A DNA stretch of 22,543 bases, from positions 1-22,543 of the IMG/VR virus record IMGVR_UViG_3300009170_000295, one strand, 5' to 3'. The notes under the pieces were generated by a model. That model saw only the letters and a program-made list of their open reading frames with translations. It ran no database searches and was not told the origin of the DNA. This document shows positions 1,157 through 20,939 of this stretch, in pieces. Position 1 is the first letter of the stretch, and every line of letters starts with the position of its first letter. Both the position numbers and the translations under genes were made by a program. This DNA comes from a virus.

Positions 1157-3135
1157 AGTTTTTGATTGACGGCTTGGATAGGGGCCAGCCATTGAATCCG
1201 GAGGACTTTGGCATCACGATAAATGAAGATGATAGCATTGGAGCTCGCATAGTTTCCTACGATGCCGAGCTAATCTTCGGAGGCGATGTGTTCACGTATC
1301 TTTACAGCAAGCTTGAAACAACTGGCTACTGCGAATTGGTGCAATGCTCGGTGCAATATCTTTGCCCATCAGGAACGTGGGAGCGATTGGTGGATGGGTA
1401 CATCATTGCAACCGAATGCGCCTTCCTGCTTGACCGGTGCCAGGTGAAGACCAAGCTTTATGATGAAAGCTTCAGCACCAAGATCAATAACAACAAAGCG
1501 ATTCCGTTCTCAATGGATTTGACATTGTCAAAGAATGGAACGACAATCATTCCGCCCACAAGAAAGACTTTGCGATTGTTCAATCCTGCCAATGGTGCAA
1601 CAATTAATCCTCCTTCAATATGCTTTACTGTTTATGATACATTCACTCATTTGGTGAATTGCATGAGTGATGGCTTGATTGATTTCCATTCTGATTTCTT
1701 TTTTATTCCATTTACATCAGCACAGCCTAACGTATTTGTTTACACTCAGGGCAATGTGATGCGCGGATTAATAGGCCAGGAGATTGTTGCAACCTTTGAG
1801 ACCCTTTACAACGCTTTACGATTTAAACTGAATCTTGGAATTGGATTCGAAAGGCAATCTAATGGCAGGCCATTATTGCGCATAGAGCCAATTGCCTATT
1901 TCCAGCAAAGCACTCCATCGAGCAATTTGTATGATCAGCCAGACATCGAGATGAAGTTCGATGTCTCAAGACTTTATGCAGCTGTGAATTTTGGCAGCAG
2001 TCCAATGCTTGAGGACTTTGAGTGCGATGGAGGCGAGACAGCCTGCTCATTCGTGCAGACTCCATTCAGGGGATTCAGAGATGAGACATTCGGATTCATT
2101 GGAGAATGCAACTCATCGAATGTTTTAAGACTTAAAACTGATGAGATAGTATTCGATACAAATGTGATTGAGGACGTTGTAAGATTCAACAATCAGAACT
2201 ATGACAACAACGGCTTTGTGATTCAATCCGATGTTGTAACCTCATCAATCCTGCAAGCTTCTGAGGGAGATCCGTATTCAATTGGCGGTTTTGTTTATAA
2301 TGATTTATTTAGAAACGAATCTGTTTCGGCAAATTGGATCAGTGGATATCCGAATTCGTTGCAATCATTTTTATCCGGCTTCGATCCTATATTGACTCAG
2401 TTTAATGCAAGGGCAACGGTTGACACTCAATGCTGGGATATTGATGACGGAGTATGGATTTCATACAACGAATCGACAGGAAATTATCTTTCATTCCCGA
2501 ATGAGATAAGTGATGTAGGCAACAACTTCAACGGCACTGAGTATGTGGTGCCATTTACGGGGCTTTACACGTTCGTGCTTGTGGTGCAGTTCGATTCTGT
2601 ATTCACAACTGGAAATAAGTTGAGCAAGGCAATCATTAGACACCAGACTACTAACGATGTTGACATCGCATTCTATGAAGGAGCTGTTGTGACATCGACA
2701 ACTGCAAGCTTTGTGCAGACTTTGGTGACAGCGCAATTCGTTTGCAATGCTGGCGATAAGATTAAAGCTGATGCTGCCGGTCAATTAACAGCAGCAGGCC
2801 CACCGGCACAACAGTGCATACTATCTCAATGGACCGATATTCCAAGCGGCACAACCTTTAGAACTACATTCAGCGGAAACGGAATCCCATTGCTACCTTC
2901 AGAACTTCAGCCAGTCGACATCAACGATGTGCAGACCTATCTATACAAGTTCAAACGTCCTCTGACGATGGCAGAGATAAACGCCATTACAAGCGAACCA
3001 TCGAAGCCAATTCTATTGGGTCGGAAAGATGATGTTCTTGCGGTTTCTCCGACCTACATCAAAGCAATCAACATTGAATCAGTCATGCGCAAAGGCGCGC
3101 AATTCGAACTAAGATCCAACAAGCTACTGCCATGA
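1141..3135 (+). CDS. Large distal-tail / tail-hub-like structural protein with C1q-like module
   Basis: 664 residues, directly after the tape-measure gene and overlapping it by 16 nt, the position of distal-tail and hub proteins in siphophages. The N-terminal part ('FGGDVFTYLYSKLE', 'LVDGYII') looks like a mostly beta fold. Residues about 465-550 contain 'VPFTGLYTFVLVVQFD', then 'LVTAQFVCNAGDKIKADAAG'. The pattern 'VP.TG.Y.F ... AGD.I' is that of C1q/TNF-like jelly rolls, which occur in phage tip and receptor-binding proteins. Many Cys residues are scattered through the chain. No enzymatic motif was recognised. Role in tail tip and baseplate assembly is inferred from position and domain type; the exact protein (Dit versus hub) cannot be decided from the sequence alone. 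Confidence 0.6.
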   Translation: MAAELKFLIDGLDRGQPLNPEDFGITINEDDSIGARIVSYDAELIFGGDVFTYLYSKLETTGYCELVQCSVQYLCPSGTWERLVDGYIIATECAFLLDRCQVKTKLYDESFSTKINNNKAIPFSMDLTLSKNGTTIIPPTRKTLRLFNPANGATINPPSICFTVYDTFTHLVNCMSDGLIDFHSDFFFIPFTSAQPNVFVYTQGNVMRGLIGQEIVATFETLYNALRFKLNLGIGFERQSNGRPLLRIEPIAYFQQSTPSSNLYDQPDIEMKFDVSRLYAAVNFGSSPMLEDFECDGGETACSFVQTPFRGFRDETFGFIGECNSSNVLRLKTDEIVFDTNVIEDVVRFNNQNYDNNGFVIQSDVVTSSILQASEGDPYSIGGFVYNDLFRNESVSANWISGYPNSLQSFLSGFDPILTQFNARATVDTQCWDIDDGVWISYNESTGNYLSFPNEISDVGNNFNGTEYVVPFTGLYTFVLVVQFDSVFTTGNKLSKAIIRHQTTNDVDIAFYEGAVVTSTTASFVQTLVTAQFVCNAGDKIKADAAGQLTAAGPPAQQCILSQWTDIPSGTTFRTTFSGNGIPLLPSELQPVDINDVQTYLYKFKRPLTMAEINAITSEPSKPILLGRKDDVLAVSPTYIKAINIESVMRKGAQFELRSNKLLP

Positions 3136-4760
3136 GTTATACCTCGATACCTAACCAACCGATAATCTTCAATTCTATTTTGCCTGAAGGCTGCGAGGGC
3201 TGTGGCTCGGAGTATTCGCAGTTGGTAGATTTCAACGACCAATTATTCTACCAACTTGAAGTAGGCGTTTGCGGCGTATCCAAAAGAGGAGACCAAATAT
3301 TATTCGGTGATTGGACACAATCGGGAAGCACGATAACGGGAACGGGCAATCTTGGTGGATATGTTGAAGGCCGAATACTTTATGACATCGTTCGCAATTG
3401 GAGAATAACGGTAACAATAGACACATATAACAGCGGAACATTATCTGTTGGAACGCTGGTAGGCACAACTGTGAATTTATCCGCACCGGGTACGCACACG
3501 TTTATAATCGACAATTATGACCAGACCAATAACGAAATTGCGTTCTTTTTCGCAGGATTGTCTGGAGATGAATTCGATGGCACATTCACGGTTGACCAAA
3601 TTGAAACGTTAGCAAGCGGCTGGCTATTTACAGGATTGGTAGATGCGCAAACCCTTGCGATAGTTCAAAGGTTTGACCACGTTCTAACTTTAAGGGATAA
3701 CTATCTAACGGCTGCAATCAACATGGCCGATTACGATATCGAGCCGGGCTGCTATCGGTTAGCGATTGCGGACTATTGCGAAAATACTTGCGGTCAGTAT
3801 TTCATTTACAACCCGTTCTTCAATGGCCCGTCCTTAGCAAGCGGCTGGACTTCGAATCCAATTGTTGGGTCAACAAATTGGACGGTAGGTAATGGCGAGG
3901 CAGCGATTGAATTATCAGGCACGAACTCAACTGAGCTGGTAAGTGTTACGGAGTTGTGCGAGGATAAGGATTACTACATCACAATCGTTGTAGATACCAT
4001 TGACAACTGCACACTTGAGCTGCAAGTTGACGGCATCATATACGGCCCTACAATAACAACGGCAGGCACGTATAGCTTTCTTATAACGCCAACAACAAAC
4101 GGCGCGGTTAGCTTACTTGGAACATCCATAAGCGGTTCTCGAAATGAGATAATCGTTACCAAGATAACCGTGCAAGCCGATAAGAACTGGGCAACCTATG
4201 ACCAGTACAGCGACCTAATCAGCGTAGGGGATTTCTCGGACGATTGCAAGTTCTTCAAGCTTGAAGGCTGTAATGCGGAGAATCAATTCGGCCTCGCGTT
4301 TAATGGCACATCGTTCTTGCCTGGCATCCGTTTGGAGGGCCGCAGATTCAGAGCTCAGTACAACTCGGATGTGGACTTGTTCAGATATGCAAGCGGCAAG
4401 GCTGTGACATCCTATGCGGATATTCGCAAGCGTGTGTCCTTCTTCTTTGGCCAATTGCCTGAATACGTATTCGACTTCCTTTCGATTATCACGTACTTCG
4501 ACAACTTGTATGTGAACGGCGATTTGTATTCGCCAGCTGAGGCTGACTTCCCAGACATCGAGTACAACGATGCCAATGAACTTGGCTCCATCACCATCGA
4601 CTTGTATAAGAAGAACGACAGGGTGCGTAAGACTGTCTGTACGGCAGCCGATGCGAACTGCCTACCTTCGATATTGGATTTGGATACTGAGCCGTTTATA
4701 TTGGCTCAGGATGGCGATCGCTTGCTAACACAAGACAACATCAATTTGTATCAAGAATAA
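3132..4760 (+). CDS. Tail structural protein with two beta-sandwich (CBM-like) modules
   Basis: 542 residues, starting with an ATGA overlap on the preceding gene. The N-terminus is Cys-rich ('GCEGCGSEYSQL'). Two similar stretches, roughly residues 57-155 and 235-350, share 'W....TITG/WTV.NG', a 'DYYITIVVDT' or 'NWRITVTIDT' strand, a 'TAGTYSFLI' or 'APGTHTFII' strand and a closing 'DQIETL' or 'VTKITV'. This is the layout of carbohydrate-binding-module-like jelly rolls. The C-terminus, 'FILAQDGDRLLTQDN', is a short acidic/Gln motif that reappears in the -1 frame behind the capsid gene. The protein is probably a tail-tip or appendage component exposed to host glycans; this is inferred from the fold pattern and neighbours. 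The -33 box of the next gene's promoter lies inside its last codons. Confidence 0.55.
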   Translation: MSYTSIPNQPIIFNSILPEGCEGCGSEYSQLVDFNDQLFYQLEVGVCGVSKRGDQILFGDWTQSGSTITGTGNLGGYVEGRILYDIVRNWRITVTIDTYNSGTLSVGTLVGTTVNLSAPGTHTFIIDNYDQTNNEIAFFFAGLSGDEFDGTFTVDQIETLASGWLFTGLVDAQTLAIVQRFDHVLTLRDNYLTAAINMADYDIEPGCYRLAIADYCENTCGQYFIYNPFFNGPSLASGWTSNPIVGSTNWTVGNGEAAIELSGTNSTELVSVTELCEDKDYYITIVVDTIDNCTLELQVDGIIYGPTITTAGTYSFLITPTTNGAVSLLGTSISGSRNEIIVTKITVQADKNWATYDQYSDLISVGDFSDDCKFFKLEGCNAENQFGLAFNGTSFLPGIRLEGRRFRAQYNSDVDLFRYASGKAVTSYADIRKRVSFFFGQLPEYVFDFLSIITYFDNLYVNGDLYSPAEADFPDIEYNDANELGSITIDLYKKNDRVRKTVCTAADANCLPSILDLDTEPFILAQDGDRLLTQDNINLYQE

Positions 4761-4854: not shown

Positions 4855-5394
4855 ATGGCTTGTGTAAGCTACTGCGACTCTTCGCTACTTGATCACAACT
4901 TAGTAAACTGCAACGAATACAAGCTCGGTGGTGTTTCTGCGATTATCGTGGGAGCCTGTGGAACAGAACTTGTGAATCCTGAAGATGAGGCAGCACTTGA
5001 AGCATTGCTTTTGAATGGCACTGCAAAGCTCATCGAGGATATCCGCTTCGCTCTTCCTGCTGGTTCTCCGGTAACTGTTGACAGCCCAATCGGCTGCGGT
5101 ACTCCTATTCGTATTAATGAAGACCGTACTGCAACCCTGTTTGATGCAAACGTAACTGATGAAAACAATACTTTCTGGAATGATGTAAACAACCGCCGCA
5201 TCGCATGGATACTTGCGTACATGTGCGACAGCGGAAAGGTGATATACATCGATCCACCACAAGGATTGACTACCTCAGCGAACTTCATCTTGCCTGAGCA
5301 GAACAATGAATTGCAGCGTTACGAAGTAACATTCTCATGGCGCGATAAGAACATCCCAACACAATACGAGGCCCCTGCTGGCATCTTTGGATAA
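4855..5394 (+). CDS. Probable major tail (tube-like) structural protein
   Basis: 179 residues with a Cys-containing N-terminus ('MACVSYCDSSLL'), a mixed beta core and the C-terminal motif 'YEVTFSWRDKNIPTQYEAP'. It has its own strong-looking promoter and a leader hairpin. Its codons are skewed to the kind also seen in the capsid gene (many GCT and CGC, few rare codons), which suggests very high expression. A small, abundant structural protein beside the tape-measure gene is most simply the tail tube protein, although the usual position is before the tape measure rather than after it. No catalytic motif is visible. The identity as tube rather than another abundant virion protein is an inference. 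Confidence 0.5.
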   Translation: MACVSYCDSSLLDHNLVNCNEYKLGGVSAIIVGACGTELVNPEDEAALEALLLNGTAKLIEDIRFALPAGSPVTVDSPIGCGTPIRINEDRTATLFDANVTDENNTFWNDVNNRRIAWILAYMCDSGKVIYIDPPQGLTTSANFILPEQNNELQRYEVTFSWRDKNIPTQYEAPAGIFG

Positions 5395-6314
5395 TGGATA
5401 TTCAACCAACAAATCAGAGTGACAAGCACGCCTCAACAGGGGTGGTGCTTGTTGCTTTTGGTAAGCCTCAGTATTATCAAGCGGCTTATCTGTTGGCCTA
5501 TTCTATTAAGCGATTCAATAAGGATTTGCAGATTGCATTGATAAGCGATGCAAAAGATCGTGCTTTGTATTACTGCTATGATTTACTGCATGTGATTGAT
5601 ATACATGTTGAACTTCCAGAGCAGCACATCTACACGAATAAAAAATTAGATCCAGGCAAGGCGAAAGTTTTGCTTTACGATTACTTGCCATACCAGAACA
5701 ACCTATACCTTGATGTAGATGCTGTATGCCTGAAAGACTTGCAGCCTTTGATTGATATCTGCATGGCATCAGATGCGCCATACATTACTCATGTCATGGG
5801 TGAGCATAACATCGACAAAGGCAGAGACTTCAGGGACATGCAATGGGCGTGGGCTGATCATGTATGGGAGCACTTTGGACTTAATACGTCCGACACGATT
5901 TACGCAATTAACAGCTCGATTCAGTTCATCAAGAAATGTGAAACGAGCGAAAAGATATACGCCATTGCCTCGAATGAATACCTCAACAACCCGATGCCTC
6001 TTGGAAAGCTTCGCATGAAGTGGGGAGGTGGCCAGCCTGATGAGCTTTATATGAATGTGGCATTCGGCAAGGCTAAGTACAAGCCGGAAGATATTGATGC
6101 CATATGCTTTCAGATGCAGAGGCAATACAGCTATTCAGAAATTGAAAGCAAGTTTTATTTAATGAGCTACTTTGGCGGCAAAGGATTCACTCCCAGCTTT
6201 TACATTGACTGGCTAGACCGAAAACTCAAAGCATGGATGCAAGAGGACGGCATCACTCATAAATATTTTATTCACAGAATAACAGATCACAAGCATGCAG
6301 ACCCAAAGCGATAA
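5394..6314 (+). CDS. GT-A type glycosyltransferase (GT8-like)
   Basis: 306 residues, the ATG overlapping the previous stop (TAATG). After about 17 polar residues the sequence 'GVVLVAFGKPQYYQAAYLLAYSIKRF' begins a Rossmann-like nucleotide-sugar-binding fold. 'NNLYLDVDAVCLKDL' carries the DxD metal-binding motif (D107, D109) followed by the 'L.DL.PL' typical of GT8-like enzymes. A later 'GGGQPDELYMNVAF' fits the acceptor-side helix of this group. It should transfer a sugar from a nucleotide donor; the acceptor is unknown. It opens a run of three modification genes and overlaps the methyltransferase gene by 20 nt, so they are probably co-expressed. The acceptor may be a virion protein or a host surface glycan. 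Confidence 0.7.
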   Translation: MDIQPTNQSDKHASTGVVLVAFGKPQYYQAAYLLAYSIKRFNKDLQIALISDAKDRALYYCYDLLHVIDIHVELPEQHIYTNKKLDPGKAKVLLYDYLPYQNNLYLDVDAVCLKDLQPLIDICMASDAPYITHVMGEHNIDKGRDFRDMQWAWADHVWEHFGLNTSDTIYAINSSIQFIKKCETSEKIYAIASNEYLNNPMPLGKLRMKWGGGQPDELYMNVAFGKAKYKPEDIDAICFQMQRQYSYSEIESKFYLMSYFGGKGFTPSFYIDWLDRKLKAWMQEDGITHKYFIHRITDHKHADPKR

Positions 6315-6822
6315 AGAAGTTGTTCGCCATGAATGGAATTCTGAAGATGAATGCGGAGCGTTTATGGCATCGCTAATCAAGATGAGCAAGTACAAGACCG
6401 TACTTGAGATTGGAGTCTTTGAAGGCGAGACAGCACAGCATCTTATCAATGGCATTCCACAAGGTGGGCAGTATATTGGAATTGATATCAATGACTATCG
6501 CACTGACAAGACTAAGCAAGCAATGCAAGAACGTGGCAAGTCAATTGAATTTATCCTTGGCAATTCACTCGATGAATTAAAGCATTTACCGCATGAACAT
6601 TTTGACCTTATCTTTATTGATGGAGACCACAGCTTTGAGCATGTATTGGAAGAATTCAAGATTGCTGAGACTTTGATAAGCCAAGGCGGTGTGATAGTGT
6701 TGCATGACACAATCCATTTGGAAGGGCCTCGAAAAGTAGTAGAGCACGCATGGTATTATAAGTATAACACAGTCACGGTTAACACTCCAGAAGGGCGTGG
6801 CATAACGATATTGAAAAGGTGA
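6295..6822 (+). CDS. Class I SAM-dependent methyltransferase
   Basis: 175 residues. 'VLEIGVFEGETAQHL' (E38-I-G40) is motif I, the SAM-binding loop. 'YIGIDIND' supplies the acidic residue at the end of strand 2. 'FDLIFIDGDHSFEHV' (D104 to H112) matches the metal/SAM-site motif of the Methyltransf_24 group, and 'GGVIVLHDT' follows. This group includes enzymes that methylate sugars and small molecules rather than DNA, and no DNA-specificity domain is present. Sitting between two glycosyltransferase genes with overlaps on both sides (20 nt upstream, GTGA downstream), it most likely methylates a transferred sugar, which is an inference from context. Confidence 0.7.
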   Translation: MQTQSDKEVVRHEWNSEDECGAFMASLIKMSKYKTVLEIGVFEGETAQHLINGIPQGGQYIGIDINDYRTDKTKQAMQERGKSIEFILGNSLDELKHLPHEHFDLIFIDGDHSFEHVLEEFKIAETLISQGGVIVLHDTIHLEGPRKVVEHAWYYKYNTVTVNTPEGRGITILKR

Positions 6823-7490
6823 ATATCAAAGTAAACATAGCAGTTCAGCGCAACCGAATAAGCGTAGCACAGCGGTTAATTGATTCGTTAAATAAACAAT
6901 CGATTAAGCCCGACTTAATTACGATTATATTGCAGGGCTTTCGCCACGAATTTAAAAGCTCGATTGAATTAAAATGTGTTTACAACGATAGTAACAAAGG
7001 TTCAGCGGAGCGATTAAAGCACGTAGGCGACGGGGTTAACTTAATTATTGACGATGACTTTATAGCATCGAACCAATACATTGAAACCGCGCTAAAGGGC
7101 TTAGAACGCAACCCTAACGCGTTTTGTTCTTTTTGGGGTTATCGGTTTTTAAATGACAAAGATTATTTTAAATCTTGGGCTAATCTCGAATCGTGGAAAA
7201 CGTTTGAAACAGATGTTAAATGTTTAATGCTTGGCGTGGGTTTGTCGGTTTGGGATGAATCAATTTTAAATTTAAAAGAGGTTCAATTCGAGCGTATTAA
7301 TTACGTTGATGTTCAATTAGCAGTGCATTGTTTAGCTAACCAAATCGAACAATTTAAAATCGCACACCCTGCTAATATTGCGCAGAGTATCGCAGATGTA
7401 AGGATTCAGGCTAACGCCCTTTGGCGCGGGCAAATGGATAATAAAGTATTTTTGCAAAGTCAACACGACAAACTAATCAAGCTATTATGA
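6819..7490 (+). CDS. GT2-like glycosyltransferase, AT-rich gene
   Basis: 223 residues with a GTG start that overlaps the previous TGA (GTGA). The N-terminus 'VNIAVQRNRISVAQRLIDSL', then 'NDSNKGSAERLKH' and 'LIIDDDFIAS' (D78-D80) follow the GT2 order: nucleotide-binding strand, the 'N.G...AR'-like helix, then the metal-binding aspartates. The protein is shorter than common GT2 enzymes and lacks a membrane segment. Its codon use differs from the neighbours: TTA dominates for Leu, AAT and GAT are frequent, and the whole gene is visibly more AT-rich, which suggests separate acquisition. It probably acts with the preceding glycosyltransferase and methyltransferase. Donor and acceptor are not readable from the sequence. 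Confidence 0.6.
   Translation: MNIKVNIAVQRNRISVAQRLIDSLNKQSIKPDLITIILQGFRHEFKSSIELKCVYNDSNKGSAERLKHVGDGVNLIIDDDFIASNQYIETALKGLERNPNAFCSFWGYRFLNDKDYFKSWANLESWKTFETDVKCLMLGVGLSVWDESILNLKEVQFERINYVDVQLAVHCLANQIEQFKIAHPANIAQSIADVRIQANALWRGQMDNKVFLQSQHDKLIKLL
7420..7454 (+). promoter_or_regulatory. Possible promoter for the portal operon
   Basis: TTTG at 7420-7423 and TATTTTTG at 7447-7454 match the Bacteroidota boxes, but the 23-nt spacer is long and the site lies inside the end of the glycosyltransferase gene. Transcription would start near 7460 and give a leader of about 100 nt before the portal ATG, containing the micro-ORF at 7487. A chance match is possible, because TAnnTTTG is expected a few times per strand in a window of this size. 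Confidence 0.3.
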
Positions 7491-7564
7491 AACCAACTTT
7501 CTGCCGATCTAAGAGCTGCGGCTCGCACATCATAAACCAACCAACAACTAAAGCAGTTGCATAA
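7487..7564 (+). CDS. Possible 25-residue micro-ORF linking modification genes to portal
   Basis: The ATG overlaps the stop of the upstream glycosyltransferase as ATGA (7487-7490), and its TAA (7562-7564) overlaps the portal start as TAATG. The peptide is basic and contains 'CRSKSCGSH'. Exact stop-start coupling on both sides is the main evidence, since an ORF this short could be open by chance. It may act mainly to carry ribosomes from the upstream gene to the portal start. A short GC-rich hairpin, GAGC-TGCG-GCTC at 7513-7524, lies inside it. No family is recognised. Confidence 0.4.
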   Translation: MKPTFCRSKSCGSHIINQPTTKAVA

Positions 7565-9471
7565 TGGCACTTTCTACTGAGGACATTGACAAGATTGTTC
7601 GGAGGTTCGCATACCAGTACAAGGGATGGGAGACCGCTTCGAAGAGCTCACCCATAAACCCAGTCACTAAGGAGCGCACTGGTGTAACTCAATATCCTGA
7701 GTATTGGCCGGGGTATAACTATGCCGCTAAGATGTATGACAGCATCTTGCCGCATACCCGGCCTGACATTTACCCAGCTCACTTGCTGAGTGTGCGTGCA
7801 CCTAATCAAACCGATTTGCAGGCTGAGTACATCAGAGCCAACTACAAGCCCACAACACTCAGCGTGTTTGAGGACTTCAAGGCTACGATAAGCCGTGCCT
7901 TTGCAGATCAGAATTGGTCCATCCGATACACGCCAGAACTTGAGCCAATCTTCGGGGATGATACGTTTCAGCGTTATGTGAATAACGAGATTGAAAAGTT
8001 CGGATCACTGGAGTCATTCGTCAAGACCATGCTTCCAACATTGAAGCTGATTGACCCCAATGGCATCATTGCTATCTCACCGGAAGAGGTTGAGACCATC
8101 GAGAATGAAGAGGGAGAAGAGGTGATAAGCAACGATCTTATCAAGCCGATGCCGGAATACTATTCCTGCAAGAGCATCGTGGGGCAGAAGTTCGGAGAGT
8201 ATTTCATGGTGATATCCGATGACAAGAGTGAAGTGAAGGCAGGCAGCAAGATGGAGCATTCAGGCCTTGTGCTTGAGATATATGACACCGATGCAATTTG
8301 GAAGGTATATCAGTACGGCAAGAAGTCCGACATGACATTCTCAGAGCCTGTGCTGTATTATCAGCACAACCTTGGATATGTGCCTGCGCAAAAGCTTCAG
8401 GGCACTCCACAGCTCATCAATGGAGAGATTGCATTCCAGTCACCATTCATCACGGCTGTGCCCTTGTTGGACCAAGTGATTCTCGATGAGTCATACTTGC
8501 AAATCAGCAAAGCCACAAGTGCCTTCCCTTTCATGGTTGCACTTGGAGAGATTTGCGAGTTCATTGACCGCGAAGGAAACAAATGCCAGGACGGCCAAAT
8601 CTTTGATCCAATCAATGGCGGTTACAGGACTTGCGGTTCATGTAACGGGTCCGGAGTGAAGTCAAGATTTTCGCCTACTGGCATGCTATTAATCAAGCCA
8701 AAGACTGCATTGAGCGAAGGCGACAGTGCTTTATCTGGTGAGTACCTAAAGTTCGTGAGCCCTCCAATGGACACATTGAACTTCCTGCGTACAGAGATTG
8801 AGCAGCAGATGGCCAAGGCAAGAAGGATATTGCACTTGCCATCGAGTGACGAAAGCGGAACCATTGGCGAAGCATCGACTGCAACGGGCTCATTGAATAA
8901 GCTGCGTGCGCTGTATGCCTTCATCAAGCCTATCTCAGACCAGCTGTTCAACCTATACGAATTCTGCTTGGTGACAATGGGGCAAATGCGATACGGCGAA
9001 TTCTTTGGCGGTATCAACTTGGTGTATCCAACATCATTCGACATCAGCACTCCGAGCGACTACCTTGCTGTTATCAGCGAAGGCGTGAAGGCTGGTGTGC
9101 CTCCATCGATTACATTCAGTAATGTCTACAACTACATCCGAGCAATTCACTACACCGATGAGGAGACCTCAGCGATTTACGACCTGATCATCAATGCGGA
9201 TGAGTTGCTGCTTATGAGCAGTGCAGACATCGCGTTGCGTGTTGCAAATGGCACGGTTGAAAAGTACCAAGATGTGATTCACCACAGCGCACCTCAGCTG
9301 ATCATGGAGCTCATTCGGAACTACATCCCGACTGAAGATGCACCTCGTTTCATTGACTTACCAATGAGCGAACAGATTGCAGCATTGAATCGCTTGGCAT
9401 CGGATAAGATAGGCACGCAACTGGATCCAATCCAACAGGCGCAACAGGAGCTACTGAATGGCATCATTTGA
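7564..9471 (+). CDS. Portal protein
   Basis: 635 residues. It precedes a MuF-type gene and, further on, scaffold and capsid genes, the standard head order. Length and layout fit a portal: an N-terminal alpha/beta part, a long central region, 'SDESGTIGEASTATGSLNKLRALYAFIKPISDQLFNLY'-like helical stem (about residues 438-475; only key positions matter here), and a polar C-terminus ending in a Gln-rich tail. The dodecameric portal forms the DNA-entry ring at one capsid vertex. Unusual is a Cys cluster, C331, C341, C357 and C360, with 'TCGSCNGSG', which resembles a small metal-binding insertion. The gene ends with a 14-nt overlap on the next gene. Assignment rests on context and general layout. 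Confidence 0.7.
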   Translation: MALSTEDIDKIVRRFAYQYKGWETASKSSPINPVTKERTGVTQYPEYWPGYNYAAKMYDSILPHTRPDIYPAHLLSVRAPNQTDLQAEYIRANYKPTTLSVFEDFKATISRAFADQNWSIRYTPELEPIFGDDTFQRYVNNEIEKFGSLESFVKTMLPTLKLIDPNGIIAISPEEVETIENEEGEEVISNDLIKPMPEYYSCKSIVGQKFGEYFMVISDDKSEVKAGSKMEHSGLVLEIYDTDAIWKVYQYGKKSDMTFSEPVLYYQHNLGYVPAQKLQGTPQLINGEIAFQSPFITAVPLLDQVILDESYLQISKATSAFPFMVALGEICEFIDREGNKCQDGQIFDPINGGYRTCGSCNGSGVKSRFSPTGMLLIKPKTALSEGDSALSGEYLKFVSPPMDTLNFLRTEIEQQMAKARRILHLPSSDESGTIGEASTATGSLNKLRALYAFIKPISDQLFNLYEFCLVTMGQMRYGEFFGGINLVYPTSFDISTPSDYLAVISEGVKAGVPPSITFSNVYNYIRAIHYTDEETSAIYDLIINADELLLMSSADIALRVANGTVEKYQDVIHHSAPQLIMELIRNYIPTEDAPRFIDLPMSEQIAALNRLASDKIGTQLDPIQQAQQELLNGII

Positions 9472-10366
9472 TTCCTTAGTTCGCGATAAGATTGCGCTGT
9501 TCGAGTCAGTGCCTGAGAAGCTGGCAACGGCTGCTCAGAAGACTCAAGCTGAGATATGGCGCAAGATTCGCCCTATCTTGGAAGACATGGATGTCACAGC
9601 TGCCGGAAACATCGAGCAGACTGAAGGTAACATAAGGCGCATTGCACTTATCAGCGATGAACTCAAGAAGGTGCTGGCAGGCGGTGAATACCGCGAAGCA
9701 GTTCGTGCCTTCCTTGGTTCGATTGATGAAGGCGTGCAGTTGACAAATGAGATTGCACGTACATTCGAGAGTGCATTCGAGCCTACTGAAGTGCAAAAGC
9801 AATTGCTACAAATTAGCAAGCAGAATGCAATTAACACCTTTTTTGGTGCTGGGCTGGATGCAAGATTCACGCAGCCATTCCTTGAGCAGCTGACAACCAA
9901 CATCGCAGCAAGGTCACCACTACGCGAGACCGTTGCAGCATTAGAGGGAATAGTCACCGGCACAGAGGCGAATGATGGCAGGCTGCTCGCCAACATCAAG
10001 ACCACAGCAACAACTGCTCAGGCTGTTGCAGATAGAAGCTATTCAGCGGCTGTTAATGATGAACTTGGCATTGAGTGGTTTGAATATCTTGGCGGCGAGA
10101 TACCTACAACACGGCCGTTCTGCGAGCATCGTGAAGGGGAGATATTCCACCGCAAGGAGATTGAAGCATGGGGAGACGGCAAGAATAGTGGTGGCATAAG
10201 AGACATACGTGACGGCACTTGGGCTGGGCGCATAGATGGCACAGATAGCAAGTCAATCTTCACTTTAGTGGGTGGGTGGAATTGCCGACACTATCTGGTG
10301 CCAGTGCCCGATCGCAAAGTGCCTGAGACGGTAAAAGCAAGAGCAAGAGCCGAGGGGTTTATCTAA
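9458..10366 (+). CDS. MuF / SPP1 gp7-type minor head protein
   Basis: 302 residues. The N-terminal two thirds are helical. The C-terminal third holds the family signature: 'TTRPFCEHREGEIFHRKEIEAW' (R219, C222, H224, R225; family residues within this span) and 'GGWNCRHYLVPVP' (C276, R277, H278). In Mu and SPP1 relatives this protein sits inside the procapsid near the portal and is involved in early head assembly or DNA ejection. The start overlaps the portal gene by 14 nt, so the two are co-translated. The stop lies only 2 nt from the stop of the opposite-strand glycosyltransferase and no terminator separates them, so read-through would run antisense to that gene. Confidence 0.85.
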   Translation: MASFDSLVRDKIALFESVPEKLATAAQKTQAEIWRKIRPILEDMDVTAAGNIEQTEGNIRRIALISDELKKVLAGGEYREAVRAFLGSIDEGVQLTNEIARTFESAFEPTEVQKQLLQISKQNAINTFFGAGLDARFTQPFLEQLTTNIAARSPLRETVAALEGIVTGTEANDGRLLANIKTTATTAQAVADRSYSAAVNDELGIEWFEYLGGEIPTTRPFCEHREGEIFHRKEIEAWGDGKNSGGIRDIRDGTWAGRIDGTDSKSIFTLVGGWNCRHYLVPVPDRKVPETVKARARAEGFI

Positions 10367-10368
10367 GC

Positions 10369-11751
10369 CTACTTGTGCTTAAATATTGACACGGTATTGC
10401 GTTCATTCGCTTTGAATTCCGTCACCACTTCAGGACCAGTTGTAAAGTCATTAGCGAAGTGAGAATAAACCACATAGTTAAAGCTTGCCATGTCCATCGG
10501 TATTGATGCTTTTTGCACATTGAAATATGTTTCATTTGCCATGAGCTGAAAGAATCTTAGCGCAATAGCATAAGCACCACCAACAACACCACAATTCAAC
10601 AGAGCCAAGCTTCTTGCATGTTTATACAAGGTCGTGTATTTATGGCTTTTGCAATGCCGCCATTGGTTTAACTTTAGCCAAGGGCTGGAAAGTGTCTGGC
10701 CTTTCTCATAGCCTACATATAGCAAATTCTCATCAACATCAAAAGGATTTCTAAGGACCTCAACATCGGTAGCATCCACGCACCATACATGGCTTGATCT
10801 ATTCTTTTGGATGTAGTCCAACTGCATCAACCAGCGAAAGTCATTCGGGCTGAATTTATGGTCCGGATTTTCTATCTTTACAAATTCGGTCGTGCCTTGA
10901 TTTTCAAAATCGCAATTGGTCAATATTACCAATCGAATGCCTAAATCTTTGCAGCTATTCATAAGTGGCAAAAGCGGATCCACTGCATTGGGCAATAAAG
11001 TTTTTCTCTGTGGATCAATCGAGTAATTAAAATAACTCGATAGCACATAAGGCTTTTGCAATTCGATGTCAGATTCTTTATAAGGAATGAAAGCTTTGCT
11101 ATCTTTCTGCTGAGATAGTCTTCTATGGCTAAGATAACTTTGCGCTGCCACATCTAATCTTGAGGTCCGAGAAACACCAGCCTGATCCAAGCAATAAAAC
11201 AAAGGCTCTGATACATCCATGAAAGCATGCGGAATTAATCCAGCATTCTTGGCTCGAATAGCGTAATCCAAATGCTCATCACCATAAAGCGCATACTGGT
11301 CATCGTAACCTCCTATTTTATCCACTACACTTTTATTGATATACACCATGCAGCCGCAAGGATTGGAATACCATTTATGCGCACCGTATGTTTTTAATAA
11401 CCGGTTACCATTTTGAATTCTTTTTGCCACAACCGAAAACGTGTATGACAGCAATGGCTGATGACTTTCGACATAGGCTTTACACCAATCCGGCGAAGTA
11501 GGATAGCAATCATCATCTGCCAAGAATAGTTGATCGCAGCCTTTGTCAATCAGCAGCTCGATACATTTGTTTTTTGCTTTGGCAATTCCAACATTGACAT
11601 CGAATCGATGGTCCGCATTTGGGTATGGGTCAGTGCTTGCATCATCTACAACTATAATTATGGCTCCATTAGGAAGCAATGCTTTCCACTTGGCAACTGT
11701 ATCAAGCGCGGTATCTCTGCGATTGTGGGTTGTTATTGCTACGCCTATCAT
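10369..11751 (-). CDS. Two-domain glycosyltransferase, antisense within the head cluster
   Basis: 460 residues. The N-terminal half is a clear GT2 enzyme: 'MIGVAITTHNRRDTALDTV', 'IIVVDDASTD' (D36, D37), 'LFLADDDCYP' (D79-D81) and 'GGYDDQYALYGDEHLDYAIRA'. The second half, from about residue 245, starts afresh with 'KPYVLSSYFNYSIDP' and has 'VWCVDATDVEVLRNPF' (D326, D329). This resembles the metal-binding strand of another GT-A fold, so the protein may carry two transferase sites. It is the only minus-strand gene, placed between the MuF and scaffold genes with 2 nt on one side and 63 nt on the other. That is the position of an inserted, independently expressed cargo gene (moron). It may modify virion or host surface sugars; the acceptor is unknown. 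Confidence 0.7.
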   Translation of the reverse strand: MIGVAITTHNRRDTALDTVAKWKALLPNGAIIIVVDDASTDPYPNADHRFDVNVGIAKAKNKCIELLIDKGCDQLFLADDDCYPTSPDWCKAYVESHQPLLSYTFSVVAKRIQNGNRLLKTYGAHKWYSNPCGCMVYINKSVVDKIGGYDDQYALYGDEHLDYAIRAKNAGLIPHAFMDVSEPLFYCLDQAGVSRTSRLDVAAQSYLSHRRLSQQKDSKAFIPYKESDIELQKPYVLSSYFNYSIDPQRKTLLPNAVDPLLPLMNSCKDLGIRLVILTNCDFENQGTTEFVKIENPDHKFSPNDFRWLMQLDYIQKNRSSHVWCVDATDVEVLRNPFDVDENLLYVGYEKGQTLSSPWLKLNQWRHCKSHKYTTLYKHARSLALLNCGVVGGAYAIALRFFQLMANETYFNVQKASIPMDMASFNYVVYSHFANDFTTGPEVVTEFKANERNTVSIFKHK

Positions 11752-11814: not shown

Positions 11815-12081
11815 ATGAGACACCTTATTCTAAGTAGTGGCCGTATCATTGAAGCCTCTGATATGGTGGCCGAGCACCTTCTTAAAAAGAAAGGAGCAAG
11901 GGAATTGACATTGCAACCAATTAACACCCCTGAAATATATGCCGATCAAACCGGAGGAAGCACTGGAGATAGTGAACTTCCTAAACCTAAACGAAGCCGA
12001 AAACCTGGAGGAAGCAAAGGAGAAGTTCCAGGAGAACTGGGTCAACTCAAAGGAGCTAAACGAAAAGCTCGGAAAGATTAA
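11815..12081 (+). CDS. Small basic protein upstream of, and overlapping, the scaffold gene
   Basis: 88 residues. Residues 1-34 ('LILSSGRIIEASDMVAEHLLKKKGARELTL') look like a small folded domain of the type seen in short phage head-region proteins. The rest is disordered and rich in Lys, Arg, Pro and Gly ('PKPKRSRKPGGSKG', 'GAKRKARKD'). The last 143 nt are shared with the scaffold gene in the +1-shifted frame, so the basic tail is the overprinted part. A TAnnTTTG box 4 nt before the ATG supports this start. Whether the whole reading frame is translated is likely but not certain; no function is recognised. Confidence 0.55.
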   Translation: MRHLILSSGRIIEASDMVAEHLLKKKGARELTLQPINTPEIYADQTGGSTGDSELPKPKRSRKPGGSKGEVPGELGQLKGAKRKARKD

Positions 12082-12763
12082 CGGCACAATTGCACATGTT
12101 GCCAAGCGTGCTTTCGAACCTTTCGGAGTTACCCTCACTGAGGAAGATTTCAAAGACAAGAAGGCGCAAGATGTTCTACGCATGGCCTCAGATCGAGCTC
12201 GCGAGGCTTATGAAAAGCAGCAAGATGAATGGCAGCAACGTGCTGACAAGTCCGGCTCAGAGGAACTTGTAAAAGAGTGGGAGAAGAAATACAAGACACT
12301 CGAAAAGAAGGTTACCGATATTGACTCAGCAAGGCAAGATGCAATCAATCAGTTCGACCAGTTCAAGCTGAAGATGGCAGAGGAGCAAAAGCAGAGCAAG
12401 ATAAACCATACATTCGAGCGCGAACTTGGAGCCATCAAGCTTGATCCTTCCGTGAATGAATTCACCATAAAAGGATTTAAGGCTACCATCAGCGAGAAGT
12501 ATGCAATCGACCTCGAAGAGGACGGCAATATCTTCGTGAAAGACAAGAACAGCGGCGAGCGATTGAAGAGCAAGGAGAAGGCAGGCTCATTCCTTAACCT
12601 TTCTGATGTGCTGCTTCAGGAAGCAACTGCTGCCGGCATCATTCAAAAGAATCCATCAGCAGGGCAAAGAGTGCCGAGACCAGGTGCGCCAATGGTGCCG
12701 CAATTGGAGTCACAATCAGACAAGAAGATACGCGGCATCAACCCTCGATTCTTTTCGAAATGA
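11939..12763 (+). CDS. Capsid scaffolding protein
   Basis: 274 residues, highly charged. It is almost entirely helical and coiled-coil from residue 1 to about 160 ('EEALEIVNFLNLNEAENLEEAKEK', key heptad positions L/I; 'KEWEKKYKTLEKKVTDIDSA'). A small beta region follows ('TIKGFKATISEKYAIDLEEDGNIFVKD' core), then a Pro-rich linker and a basic C-terminus 'KKIRGINPRFF' that could bind the capsid protein. This layout and its place shortly before the capsid gene are typical of scaffolds that guide shell assembly and then leave. The start at 11939 is supported because the helical pattern already runs through the region shared with the upstream ORF. The stop overlaps the next ATG (ATGA). No protease domain is fused. 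Confidence 0.75.
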   Translation: MPIKPEEALEIVNFLNLNEAENLEEAKEKFQENWVNSKELNEKLGKINGTIAHVAKRAFEPFGVTLTEEDFKDKKAQDVLRMASDRAREAYEKQQDEWQQRADKSGSEELVKEWEKKYKTLEKKVTDIDSARQDAINQFDQFKLKMAEEQKQSKINHTFERELGAIKLDPSVNEFTIKGFKATISEKYAIDLEEDGNIFVKDKNSGERLKSKEKAGSFLNLSDVLLQEATAAGIIQKNPSAGQRVPRPGAPMVPQLESQSDKKIRGINPRFFSK

Positions 12764-13254: not shown

Positions 13255-13284
13255 GCTCAATTCACAGCGACTCCATATCTTTGC
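13252..13284 (+). promoter_or_regulatory. Major capsid gene promoter
   Basis: TTTG at 13252-13255 (the end of the terminator T-run) and TATCTTTGC at 13276-13284 are 20 nt apart, a full match to the Bacteroidota consensus. Transcription would start near 13289 and produce a leader of about 95 nt. This gives the capsid gene a transcript separate from the scaffold genes. Confidence 0.75.
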
Positions 13285-13383: not shown

Positions 13384-14430
13384 ATGTCTATATCTCGCAT
13401 TCTATCGGAGTGTCCTAATGTGCAAATGTCACTTAGCGAACTCTTTATCGAAGTTGGTCAGCGTGAGCAATTGCCTTTCTTAGAGTTTTTGCTTTCACCT
13501 GAAAACACTAAACTAATCCGCACTGAAGTTTCTCCAGGCGGTGGAAAATTAAAAACAGTTGAAGCACGTTGGATTCAGCGTTTGCCTGAAACAGAAGTAG
13601 AAGAGGGTGGCGACATCCTTACTTGTACTTCAACCAACAACTACGGTGACAGCACAACAACTTACACAGTAGATACAACTGACACTTACACTGCATCACA
13701 GCTTATCAATGCTGCTGACATCGCTCGCCATTGCCAAGAGAATTCTCGCTATGTGCTTGAGTCGGTTATGCGTTTGATGGATGTAATCGACCGCAAGGTT
13801 GCTTCTGCTGCTGCTGTTCAGGCTGTTGCTGACATCGGAAACTGGGGCACTGAAGTTGAAGGTTACTACACTGTAACTGGTGACTGCTTGCAAATTGCTA
13901 CTCGCCAGACTGGCGGCCAAGCATTGAATGAGTTCGCACTTGCTGACATCCTTCAAGCAACTCGCATGGCTAACTATCCAGGTGCGCCTGTGGTATTTGG
14001 TGGTGCTGAGATGCAGCGTTATGCTAATGCTGTGCAAGCTGGTTGCTGCACCCAGTTCGGCATCGACTTGTTGGCTATCAGCCAGCAGAACGGATTCGGC
14101 TTTGCTTACGATTCTCGCGTTGCTGCTGCTCAAGGTTCTCAGTTAAAGAACTTGGTGACAACTGCCGGAGCAATCCAGTGGTTGTCTTTCAACCTTGCTG
14201 ATTGGAACACTGGCATCACTCCTGTTGCTGGATCAAACTACTCTAAGACCTTGGTGTTCACACCTGCTGGAGTACCAGTTGATTTGACAATGAAGGATGA
14301 CTGCGGAAACTTGTCAATTGTGTTGACTACAACTGGAAAGATTGTAACTCTTCCAACTGACATTTACGAAGCAGGCGACAAGTACGCTGGTGTTAACTAT
14401 GTTAACTGTGTTCAGATTGCAAACCCGTAA
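13384..14430 (+). CDS. Major capsid protein (zero-frame product)
   Basis: 348 residues. It follows the portal, MuF and scaffold genes, has its own strong promoter and structured leader, and uses codons strongly biased to GCT, GTT and similar T-ending forms, as expected for the most abundant virion protein. The sequence has a helical region ('ASQLINAADIARHCQENSRYV'-type, about residues 100-140), then 'GAPVVFGGAEMQRYANAVQAG' core residues and beta strands to the end ('LVFTPAGVPVDLTM', 'LSIVLTTTGKIVTLP'), consistent with a HK97-like shell protein. There is no obvious N-terminal delta domain; a separate scaffold is present. The gene ends AAC-CCG-TAA-TAG, a double stop directly behind a -1 slippery heptamer, so a longer form is likely (see the separate entry). 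Confidence 0.75.
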   Translation: MSISRILSECPNVQMSLSELFIEVGQREQLPFLEFLLSPENTKLIRTEVSPGGGKLKTVEARWIQRLPETEVEEGGDILTCTSTNNYGDSTTTYTVDTTDTYTASQLINAADIARHCQENSRYVLESVMRLMDVIDRKVASAAAVQAVADIGNWGTEVEGYYTVTGDCLQIATRQTGGQALNEFALADILQATRMANYPGAPVVFGGAEMQRYANAVQAGCCTQFGIDLLAISQQNGFGFAYDSRVAAAQGSQLKNLVTTAGAIQWLSFNLADWNTGITPVAGSNYSKTLVFTPAGVPVDLTMKDDCGNLSIVLTTTGKIVTLPTDIYEAGDKYAGVNYVNCVQIANP

Positions 14431-14478
14431 TAGGGTCGGTAGGTTTACTCTCGCAAGCCGATGAGGACTTATTGACCC
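14421..14478 (+). promoter_or_regulatory. Candidate -1 ribosomal frameshift signal at the end of the capsid gene
   Basis: AAACCCG at 14421-14427 is read in frame as A-AAC-CCG, exactly the X-XXY-YYZ pattern for tandem -1 slippage, and the next codon is the TAA stop. After a 5-nt spacer (14428-14432), 14433-14446 can pair without interruption with 14465-14478. That gives 14 pairs, of which 9 are Watson-Crick (including a GGGTC/GACCC base) and 5 are G-U, with an 18-nt loop. Spacer and stem fall within the usual range for stimulatory hairpins. There is no T-run, so this is not a terminator. Confidence 0.6.
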
Positions 14479-14510
14479 AAGACGGATTAGATAATCTAAC
14501 CACGCAATAA
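14427..14510 (+). CDS. 27-residue C-terminal extension of the capsid protein in the -1 frame
   Basis: Frameshifting at 14421-14427 would add 27 residues, from GTA at 14427 to the TAA at 14508-14510, giving a 375-residue minor form. The extension ends 'LLSQADEDLLTQDG' plus 'LDNLTTQ'. It resembles the natural C-terminus of the tail protein at 3132-4760 ('ILAQDGDRLLTQDN'), so the sequence looks coding rather than random. The -1 frame has no ATG or GTG that could start it alone; upstream it is closed by TAA at 14403. Alternatives are a recent one-base deletion in a once longer gene, or a sequencing error. A minor capsid form with an extended tail is known in other phages (T7 gene 10). Confidence 0.5.
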   Translation, partial: VIGSVGLLSQADEDLLTQDGLDNLTTQ

Positions 14511-14512
14511 AG

Positions 14513-14539
14513 GGAGGGCTTCGTGCCCTCCTTTTTTTT
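14513..14539 (+). terminator. Intrinsic terminator after the capsid gene
   Basis: GGAGGGC (14513-14519) and GCCCTCC (14525-14531) form a 7-bp GC-rich stem with a TTCGT loop and are followed by eight T residues. It lies just past the end of the -1-frame extension, so both capsid forms would be encoded on the same terminated transcript. Confidence 0.85.
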
Positions 14540-14546
14540 ATCTTTG
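14539..14546 (+). promoter_or_regulatory. -7 box of the neck/fibre operon
   Basis: TATCTTTG matches TAnnTTTG and begins on the last T of the preceding terminator. The ATG at 14561 follows by 14 nt, so the leader would be under 10 nt. The -33 region overlaps the terminator stem and shows no clear TTG, so the promoter may be weak or depend on another factor. Confidence 0.5.
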
Positions 14547-19249: not shown

Positions 19250-19708
19250 ATGCGCAGCACCTCGCTTCTCGGTCTGAATCTGATTAAGAAGTACGAGGGC
19301 TTGCGGCTTAGTTCCTATCTTTGCCCTGCTGGAGTGCCGACAATTGGATATGGCAGCACTCGCTACCCGAACGGCAAGAAGATTCTGCTCGGCGAAAAGC
19401 TCGCAAGTGAAAAGGAGGCAACGCAATTGCTACTCGCTACACTTGAGCCATTTGAAGCGGCGGTAAATAAGCACCTTCCGAATTTGAATCAATGCCAGTT
19501 CGATGCGTTGGTAGCATTCAGTTACAACGTTGGCACGGGTGCGCTGATAAAATCCACATTGCTAAAGAAAGCCAAAGTAAACGCAGCCGACCCTTCAATA
19601 TTGGATGAGTTCCTGAAGTGGAACAAGGCAGGCGGCAAAGTGCTTACAGGGCTAACCAATCGCAGGCGCGAAGAAGCGAATTTGTATTTTTCACTTTGTA
19701 ATAAATAA
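19250..19708 (+). CDS. Endolysin, GH24 (T4-type) lysozyme
   Basis: 152 residues. 'GLNLIKKYEGLRLSSYLCPAG' and 'VPTIGYGSTRYP' give the GH24 active-site order with catalytic E16, then C25 (where T4 lysozyme has D20), then T31. Spacing is identical to T4 (E-x8-D/C-x5-T), and Cys at the second position is a known variant in this family. 'CQFDALVAFSYNVGTGAL' and 'LTGLTNRRREEANLYF' complete the fold. It hydrolyses the glycan backbone of peptidoglycan at the end of infection. There is no signal peptide, so it needs a holin for release. The start directly follows the previous stop. Length is normal for a single-domain enzyme. Confidence 0.9.
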   Translation: MRSTSLLGLNLIKKYEGLRLSSYLCPAGVPTIGYGSTRYPNGKKILLGEKLASEKEATQLLLATLEPFEAAVNKHLPNLNQCQFDALVAFSYNVGTGALIKSTLLKKAKVNAADPSILDEFLKWNKAGGKVLTGLTNRRREEANLYFSLCNK

Positions 19709-20343: not shown

Positions 20344-20360
20344 AAGTTCAATCCTTGCCT

Positions 20361-20368
20361 TATCTTTG
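20361..20368 (+). promoter_or_regulatory. Possible -7 box for the PAS-HisKA gene
   Basis: TATCTTTG matches TAnnTTTG and ends 4 nt before the ATG at 20373, so transcription would begin at about the start codon (leaderless message). No strong -33 box is seen. The same 4-nt arrangement occurs at 11803-11815. Confidence 0.45.
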
Positions 20369-20372
20369 CGAT

Positions 20373-20939
20373 ATGGCAAGCCTGCACATCCTTGAGTCGA
20401 GCATCGACCTCTTCTATGTGATCACCGACAAGGATGGCAATATCGTCACCTCCAATGATTTGTTCAAGGAGTACAGCAGCCACATTAAGCCCGGCAACAT
20501 ATTGGACATTGCGGCCAACGATTCCGATCGGGATGAGTTGCTAAGTGCAATCAGGAAGTCGCAGAAGAAAGCACCGGACCCGATTCGCACCTATGCCAAG
20601 ACAAAGCAGAAGATGGCCTCTGAGCGTTACAATATGTGGAATATTTATTCCATTGTTGACATGCTGCACTTCATCGGTATTCAACTTGTCGATGTTACTT
20701 CCATAAGCAACCATGAGCATGAACGCCAGAAGATTCTTCTGGAAGAGTTCCGCTTCATGCTATCTCACGAACTTCGCCAGCCATTGACTTCAATCGGAGG
20801 CTTGGTGAAGATGATGATTGAGCACGAAAGCGCAACGGATCAGGAGCGCAATGATGTGATGAAGATGCTTGCAAATAGCGTTGATAAGCTTGATGATGTC
20901 ATCAGGTTATTAGTTAAGAAAGCAACCAGGCAAATATGA
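20373..20939 (+). CDS. PAS-HisKA protein: histidine-kinase phosphoacceptor region without ATPase domain
   Basis: 188 residues from the ATG at 20373; the in-frame TTG at 20355 is rejected because it lies upstream of the -7 box. Residues about 1-105 look like a PAS sensor ('SIDLFYVITDKDGNIVTSNDLF', core strands; 'IGIQLVDVTSI' final strand). A short helical linker leads to 'EEFRFMLSHELRQPLTSIGGL', the HisKA H-box with the phosphorylatable H132 and the usual E, R and P behind it, then the second dimerisation helix to residue 188. The HATPase domain (N, G1, F and G2 boxes) of true kinases is absent here and in the next ORF. It cannot phosphorylate itself by known chemistry. It could pair with host kinases, accept phosphate or act as a decoy; this is inference. 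Confidence 0.75.
   Translation: MASLHILESSIDLFYVITDKDGNIVTSNDLFKEYSSHIKPGNILDIAANDSDRDELLSAIRKSQKKAPDPIRTYAKTKQKMASERYNMWNIYSIVDMLHFIGIQLVDVTSISNHEHERQKILLEEFRFMLSHELRQPLTSIGGLVKMMIEHESATDQERNDVMKMLANSVDKLDDVIRLLVKKATRQI

Follow-up and report, generated by a model that had tools for sequence, protein, structure and literature searches.

Very probable programmed -1 ribosomal frameshifting at the end of a probable capsid gene in a family of uncultured phages

The probable major capsid gene in a viral sequence of 22,543 nucleotides (the window, which is the whole of a 22.5 kb IMG/VR record) very probably ends in a cassette for programmed -1 ribosomal frameshifting. Most ribosomes would translate the heptamer A_AAC_CCG, meet the adjacent stop codon and release a capsid protein of 348 residues. 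A fraction, held by a stem of 13-14 bp located five bases past the heptamer, would slip back by one base, with the Asn and Pro tRNAs re-pairing on AAA and CCC, and would then decode 27 further codons, generating a 375-residue capsid protein that ends in a short tag with an LLxQ repeat. Comparison of related sequences shows that heptamer, stem and reading frame each bear the marks of selection and that they occur, or are missing, as a set; from this pattern we infer the slip itself, how often it happens and the entry of the tagged form into the virion.

The gene is an open reading frame of 348 codons on the + strand (13384-14430), with the last codons GCA AAC CCG TAA. Its product is strongly conserved, with more than 200 relatives in IMG/VR at 70-100% identity, and is probably the major capsid protein, as judged from the order of the genes and from a weak resemblance in fold. 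The gene lies 3' of those for the portal (7564-9471; phrog_7376 match), a putative head-morphogenesis protein (9458-10366) and a putative coiled-coil scaffold protein (11939-12763), the latter two being read from place and composition only. Sequence searches of PHROGs, Pfam and the PDB with the capsid protein returned no match, nor did tblastn against 50,697 phage records at E 1e-3; at E 10 the sole match in the same records was a chance one to a tape-measure protein. No relatives were found in GTDB genomes. Gp17 of Polaribacter phage P12002L, considered as a capsid homologue, displayed no similarity. Two AF2 runs on the capsid protein were both poor (pLDDT 34 and 39), the alignment being too shallow. 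When the better model (pLDDT 39) was submitted to Foldseek the top matches were largely HK97-fold capsid proteins, the best at E 0.008 and none significant; the T7 capsid was present in the list solely among these non-significant fold matches. On this low-confidence model the HK97 fold is a candidate for the major capsid protein.

The capsid gene seems to be transcribed as a unit of its own. A promoter-like TAnnTTTG element (TATCTTTG; 13276-13283, + strand), a consensus match only, is located upstream of the gene behind a terminator-like hairpin, and an intrinsic terminator (14509-14535, + strand) lies directly behind the stop codon of the extension; a hairpin followed by a T-run is also found behind the gene in relatives. 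TAnnTTTG occurs again at 14539-14546, directly behind the capsid terminator. Elsewhere in the window three genes (5394-7490) are situated between the tail and portal genes, of which one is glycosyltransferase-like (a weak Glyco_transf_8 match), one is O-methyltransferase-like (6295-6822) and the third has no Pfam match. A lone glycosyltransferase-like gene on the - strand (10369-11751) separates the head-morphogenesis and scaffold-like genes, and a protein with a histidine-kinase HisKA domain (20355-20939; PF00512, E 1e-7) is encoded in the region behind the lysozyme gene (19250-19708).

The relatives fetched from IMG/VR provided 118 distinct capsid 3' ends, 92 with the extension and 26 without. 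In the window the slippery heptamer occupies 14421-14427 (+ strand) and abuts the zero-frame stop TAA at 14428-14430 (+ strand), exactly where an earlier, sequence-only reading of the window had placed it; the stop likewise abuts the heptamer in most relatives. AAACCC[G/A] is present in 89 of the 92 loci that carry the extension compared with two of the 26 that lack it, L041 and L059, which may be recent losses in which the heptamer has not yet drifted. Fisher's test on this association gave p of about 9e-19, a value that ignores kinship and derives from a table entered as 88/92, before the reassignment of L292, where the heptamer lies two codons further upstream. The heptamer is thus an X_XXY_YYZ motif in the zero frame that is kept by selection, as both the counts and the tree test described below indicate. 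About a fifth of the phage family has the A_AAC_CCA form. In six loci (L008, L015, L031, L042, L043 and L061; CCG TCA/GCA TAG) the stop lies one codon downstream, and in L292 two codons downstream, of an intact heptamer; these displaced stops occur on several separate branches. As all seven loci keep the heptamer, adjacency of the stop is not indispensable.

A simpler form of slippage might be proposed, in which P-site tRNA-Pro alone moves from CCG to CCC on C_CCG beside a slow stop codon, such that only CCC[G/A] and the stop matter. This would fit the abutting stop in most loci, and also L123, L129 and L135, in which the extension is kept and the heptamer is replaced, through insertion of one codon, by AAC GTC CCG TAA, leaving CCCG-TAA without AAA. 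It does not, however, account for the retention of AAA in 89 of the 92 loci, or for the intact heptamer where the stop is one or two codons further on. Furthermore, C_CCG is nearly inert in Escherichia coli, in which the tetramers C_CCG and C_CCA shift at just 1.8-3.6 times background even with a pseudoknot (PMC4066793). Single-tRNA slippage is thus an unlikely explanation for the cassette as a whole and a possible one for L123, L129 and L135.

The -1 frame of the window is open for 27 codons from 14427 (VIGSVGLLSQADEDLLTQDGLDNLTTQ; 14427-14510 with its stop, + strand) and closes at the TAA at 14508-14510, a stop codon that runs into the start of the terminator hairpin; both the length of the frame and its ending at the terminator had been noted from the sequence. 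The extensions of the relatives resemble either VIGSVGLLSQADEDLLTQDGLDNLTTQ (27 codons) or VTSSQNLLSEGSDDLLSEGSDNLLSQ (26 codons). In all 92 loci the -1 frame is open, and neither of the other two frames remains open past 25 codons. When changes are placed on a tree of the extensions themselves, 94 of 197 are synonymous in the -1 frame, compared with 57.0 +/- 6.2 expected if changes were random, and the other two frames show no synonymous excess. On the capsid tree the corresponding values are 172 of 320 and 98.8 +/- 8.1, and for the 26-codon set 44 of 94 and 27.6 +/- 4.3; the 26-codon figures are taken from the capsid tree only, where the set is clean, as the own-tree set mixes in loci with displaced stops. 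The -1 reading frame is therefore under protein-level selection, in relatives none of which contains an in-frame fusion.

A rival reading is that the extension is made separately, by termination-reinitiation or from an internal start, rather than as a fusion. The capsid stop is just upstream, relatives of the L009 type (...VIGLMSLL...) have an in-frame ATG at codon 5 of the extension, and the window has a TTG at codon 16. The initial claim that the extension has no start codon of its own hence holds for ATG and GTG in the window and fails for TTG. In most relatives, however, neither ATG nor GTG is found within the extension, a separate peptide would be shorter than 25 residues, and reinitiation has no need of a heptamer that is under selection. 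We therefore consider a separate peptide very unlikely.

Beyond a spacer of five nucleotides (14428-14432) lies a putative stimulatory stem-loop (14433-14478, + strand), whose arms, 14433-14446 and 14465-14478, can pair without interruption through nine Watson-Crick and five G-U pairs, with an inner hairpin between them; spacer and pairing alike agree with the sequence-only reading. A 90-nt element folds at -29.0 kcal/mol compared with -16.9 +/- 3.1 for shuffles (z = -3.9; none of 200 as stable), and its minimum-energy fold retains the first 13 pairs, with a small hairpin inside. In a set of 50 distinct sequences of the 27-codon type, 95.6% of the stem cells are paired, and doubly changed cells number 63, as against 16.5 in shuffles and 1-11 with the partner displaced by sliding. 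Changes on both sides are seen at eight stem pairs in this set, examples being the replacement of GGGTC/GACCC by GCGTC/GACGC, GCACC/GGTGC and GGGTTAACAG/CTGTTAACCC. The stem of the 26-codon group, which has its own sequence and a spacer of 6 nt, likewise covaries. The stem region folds with a mean of -22.0 kcal/mol in the 92 loci with the extension compared with -1.0 in the 26 without, the latter being shorter stretches. RNA structures that stimulate -1 frameshifting are expected about 5-9 nt downstream of the slippery site, and the covarying stem, with its spacer of 5 or 6 nt, is placed accordingly. An Rfam search yielded sub-threshold matches only. The slippery CCG(T) at 14425-14428 is able to pair with (A)CGG at 14482-14485, one pair being doubly changed in four sequences; this pairing is possibly due to chance and was set aside.

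The stem covariation together with the synonymous bias indicates that protein and stem are kept in the same bases. Alignment of the homologues, which had been suggested as a check, thus reveals a heptamer, a stem and a -1 frame that are all retained, with synonymous change in the extension. Transcriptional slippage would be expected to yield the same product as ribosomal frameshifting; the homopolymer runs here, however, are of just three bases, to our knowledge too short for any known slippage of this kind, and the covarying stem sits at the position of a ribosomal stimulator, which makes this route highly improbable.

The distribution of the cassette among the relatives points to repeated change. 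The extension switches state at least nine times on supported branches of the capsid tree, which was built on the first 105 rows, and in nine independent pairs the heptamer was concordant with it in seven and discordant in none, with two ties (p = 0.016). The 26 relatives without the extension have a terminator soon after the capsid stop. As heptamer and extension are present in the outgroup (L244 and L247, whose capsid proteins share about 73% identity with that of the window), and the cassette in the most divergent ingroup members (L299, L318 and L326), the bare relatives are probably secondary losses. These relatives also speak to chance, according to which the heptamer is a by-product of a conserved V/A-N-P sequence beside an accidentally open frame. 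Asn-Pro is indeed retained by most relatives, whether they carry the extension or not, and the residues are thus independent of the shift. Without the extension, however, the synonyms of Val-Asn-Pro vary (GTT AAC CCT, GTA AAT CCT and GTT AAT CCA), whereas with it A AAC CC[G/A] is kept. Chance is refuted by this contrast, by the -1 frame open in every extension-bearing locus, by the synonymous bias and by the covarying stem, since 92 of the 118 distinct relatives share the arrangement, with changes that covary. An assembly error, or a recent frameshift mutation in a once-fused gene, is equally refuted: the sequence-only reading had named in-frame fusion or a decayed -1 frame in relatives as outcomes that would tell against it, and the extension proved to be fused in none of the 118, and out of frame and open in 92 distinct contigs from many metagenomes.

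The last 21-22 residues of the extension conform to xLLSQxDxxLLxQxGDNLxxE, and a tail-region protein of the same phages (3132-4760) ends in a similar peptide, read in frame (FILAQDGDRLLTQDNINLYQE; 4695-4757, + strand). Among 21,830 21-mers from three genomes the C-terminus of the tail-region protein ranked first in similarity to the capsid tags, scoring 38.2 in L244, 36.5 in the window and 36.2 in L247, compared with 16.8 for the next unrelated 21-mer. In a larger set of 1,585 distinct C-termini, the top 23 all belonged to this protein (26-38.5; next 11.0). Both rankings come from a register-fixed C-terminal test devised after the resemblance had been noticed. With a capsid-tag profile the tail-region protein was the best non-capsid ORF, weakly, at E 0.6-1 only, and the register-fixed test thus carries more weight. 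The tag alone had no match in phages, in a search whose low-complexity filter could mask one. The middle of the tail-region protein is variable among relatives (L328-L357) and its C-terminal tag conserved; one clade has three extra residues past the tag (FIL, IIL or NNL).

The tail tag is found in every relative examined, whether or not the capsid is tagged. As it persists where the capsid tag has been lost, strict co-dependence of the two was rejected. Given how similar the in-frame C-terminus of the tail-region protein is in these phages, the tag may tentatively be viewed as a shared C-terminal peptide for docking or adhesion, which the tail-region protein always carries and which the capsid may or may not have. 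It is conceivable, if rather less likely than the alternatives taken together, that the peptide serves docking or adhesion across the virion, with capsid and tail binding the same partner and recoding determining how many tags each head carries. Candidate partners under this same doubtful reading would be a surface glycan or a protein of the decoration or fibre type.

It should be emphasized that the heptamer is a weak one in E. coli, where A_AAC_CCA was among three heptamers below the detection threshold, a strong pseudoknot included (PMC4066793). The host of these phages, however, is probably a member of the Bacteroidota and not E. coli-like. In 112 of 117 loci the capsid terminator is followed by a promoter-like TAnnTTTG, which is a promoter element of the Bacteroidota, and the only cultured relatives found for the portal are in Polaribacter phages. 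The weakness of the heptamer in E. coli thus need not apply, and host-specific decoding of A_AAC_CC[G/A] is predicted.

Extension of capsid proteins by frameshifting is already established in T7/T3, Lactobacillus phage A2 and Listeria phages (PMC5009743; for A2, as cited in PMC10885494). In T7 and T3 a -1 shift where the capsid gene (10A/10B) ends gives a minority of subunits a C-terminal extension (PMC5009743), which is the likeness to the present cassette. T7, however, employs a G_GUU-type site with a long-range terminator element (PMC5009743), in contrast with A_AAC_CC[G/A] and an immediately adjacent covarying stem, and the extension described here is shorter than that of T7 and unrelated to it. 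Of the T7-like two-form capsid first proposed for the window, the sizes (348 and 375 residues) stand, and the likeness is one of mechanism only, as tblastn against the 50,697 phage records at E 1e-3 yielded no match of either the capsid or its extension to T7 gene 10. In phage A2, according to the work cited (Garcia et al. 2004, in PMC10885494), a -1 shift in the capsid transcript similarly yields a longer major head protein, a second and essential capsid component. The A2 extension is an Ig-like domain (PMC5009743), in contrast with 26-27 residues containing an LLxQ repeat; an Ig-like capsid extension was rejected here, as this length is shorter than any Ig fold. Ig-like domains are carried by virion proteins of various kinds (Fraser et al. 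2006/2007, as cited in PMC5009743) and, to the extent described there, offer a parallel for one optional module on different proteins, attached in frame or by frameshift. A further resemblance is to Listeria phages, A118 and A500 extending the coat protein by a -1 shift and PSA both coat and tail proteins by +1 (PMC5009743). As here, coat and tail proteins of the same phage are extended; unlike in those phages, the tail-region tag is in frame and the shift is needed by the capsid only. In the literature searched no report was found of a capsid frameshift for this family of uncultured phages, whose signals are of Bacteroidota type. This study extends the known cases with a case for capsid recoding that is well documented at the sequence level, through 118 variants found in nature, changes that recurred independently and relatives that serve as internal negative controls, and that concerns a predicted longer capsid protein which ordinary gene callers would miss. 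What is new relative to the known systems is the phage family, the motif, a covariation record with natural knock-outs, and a short tag common to the tail-region protein, which ties head decoration to the tail protein.
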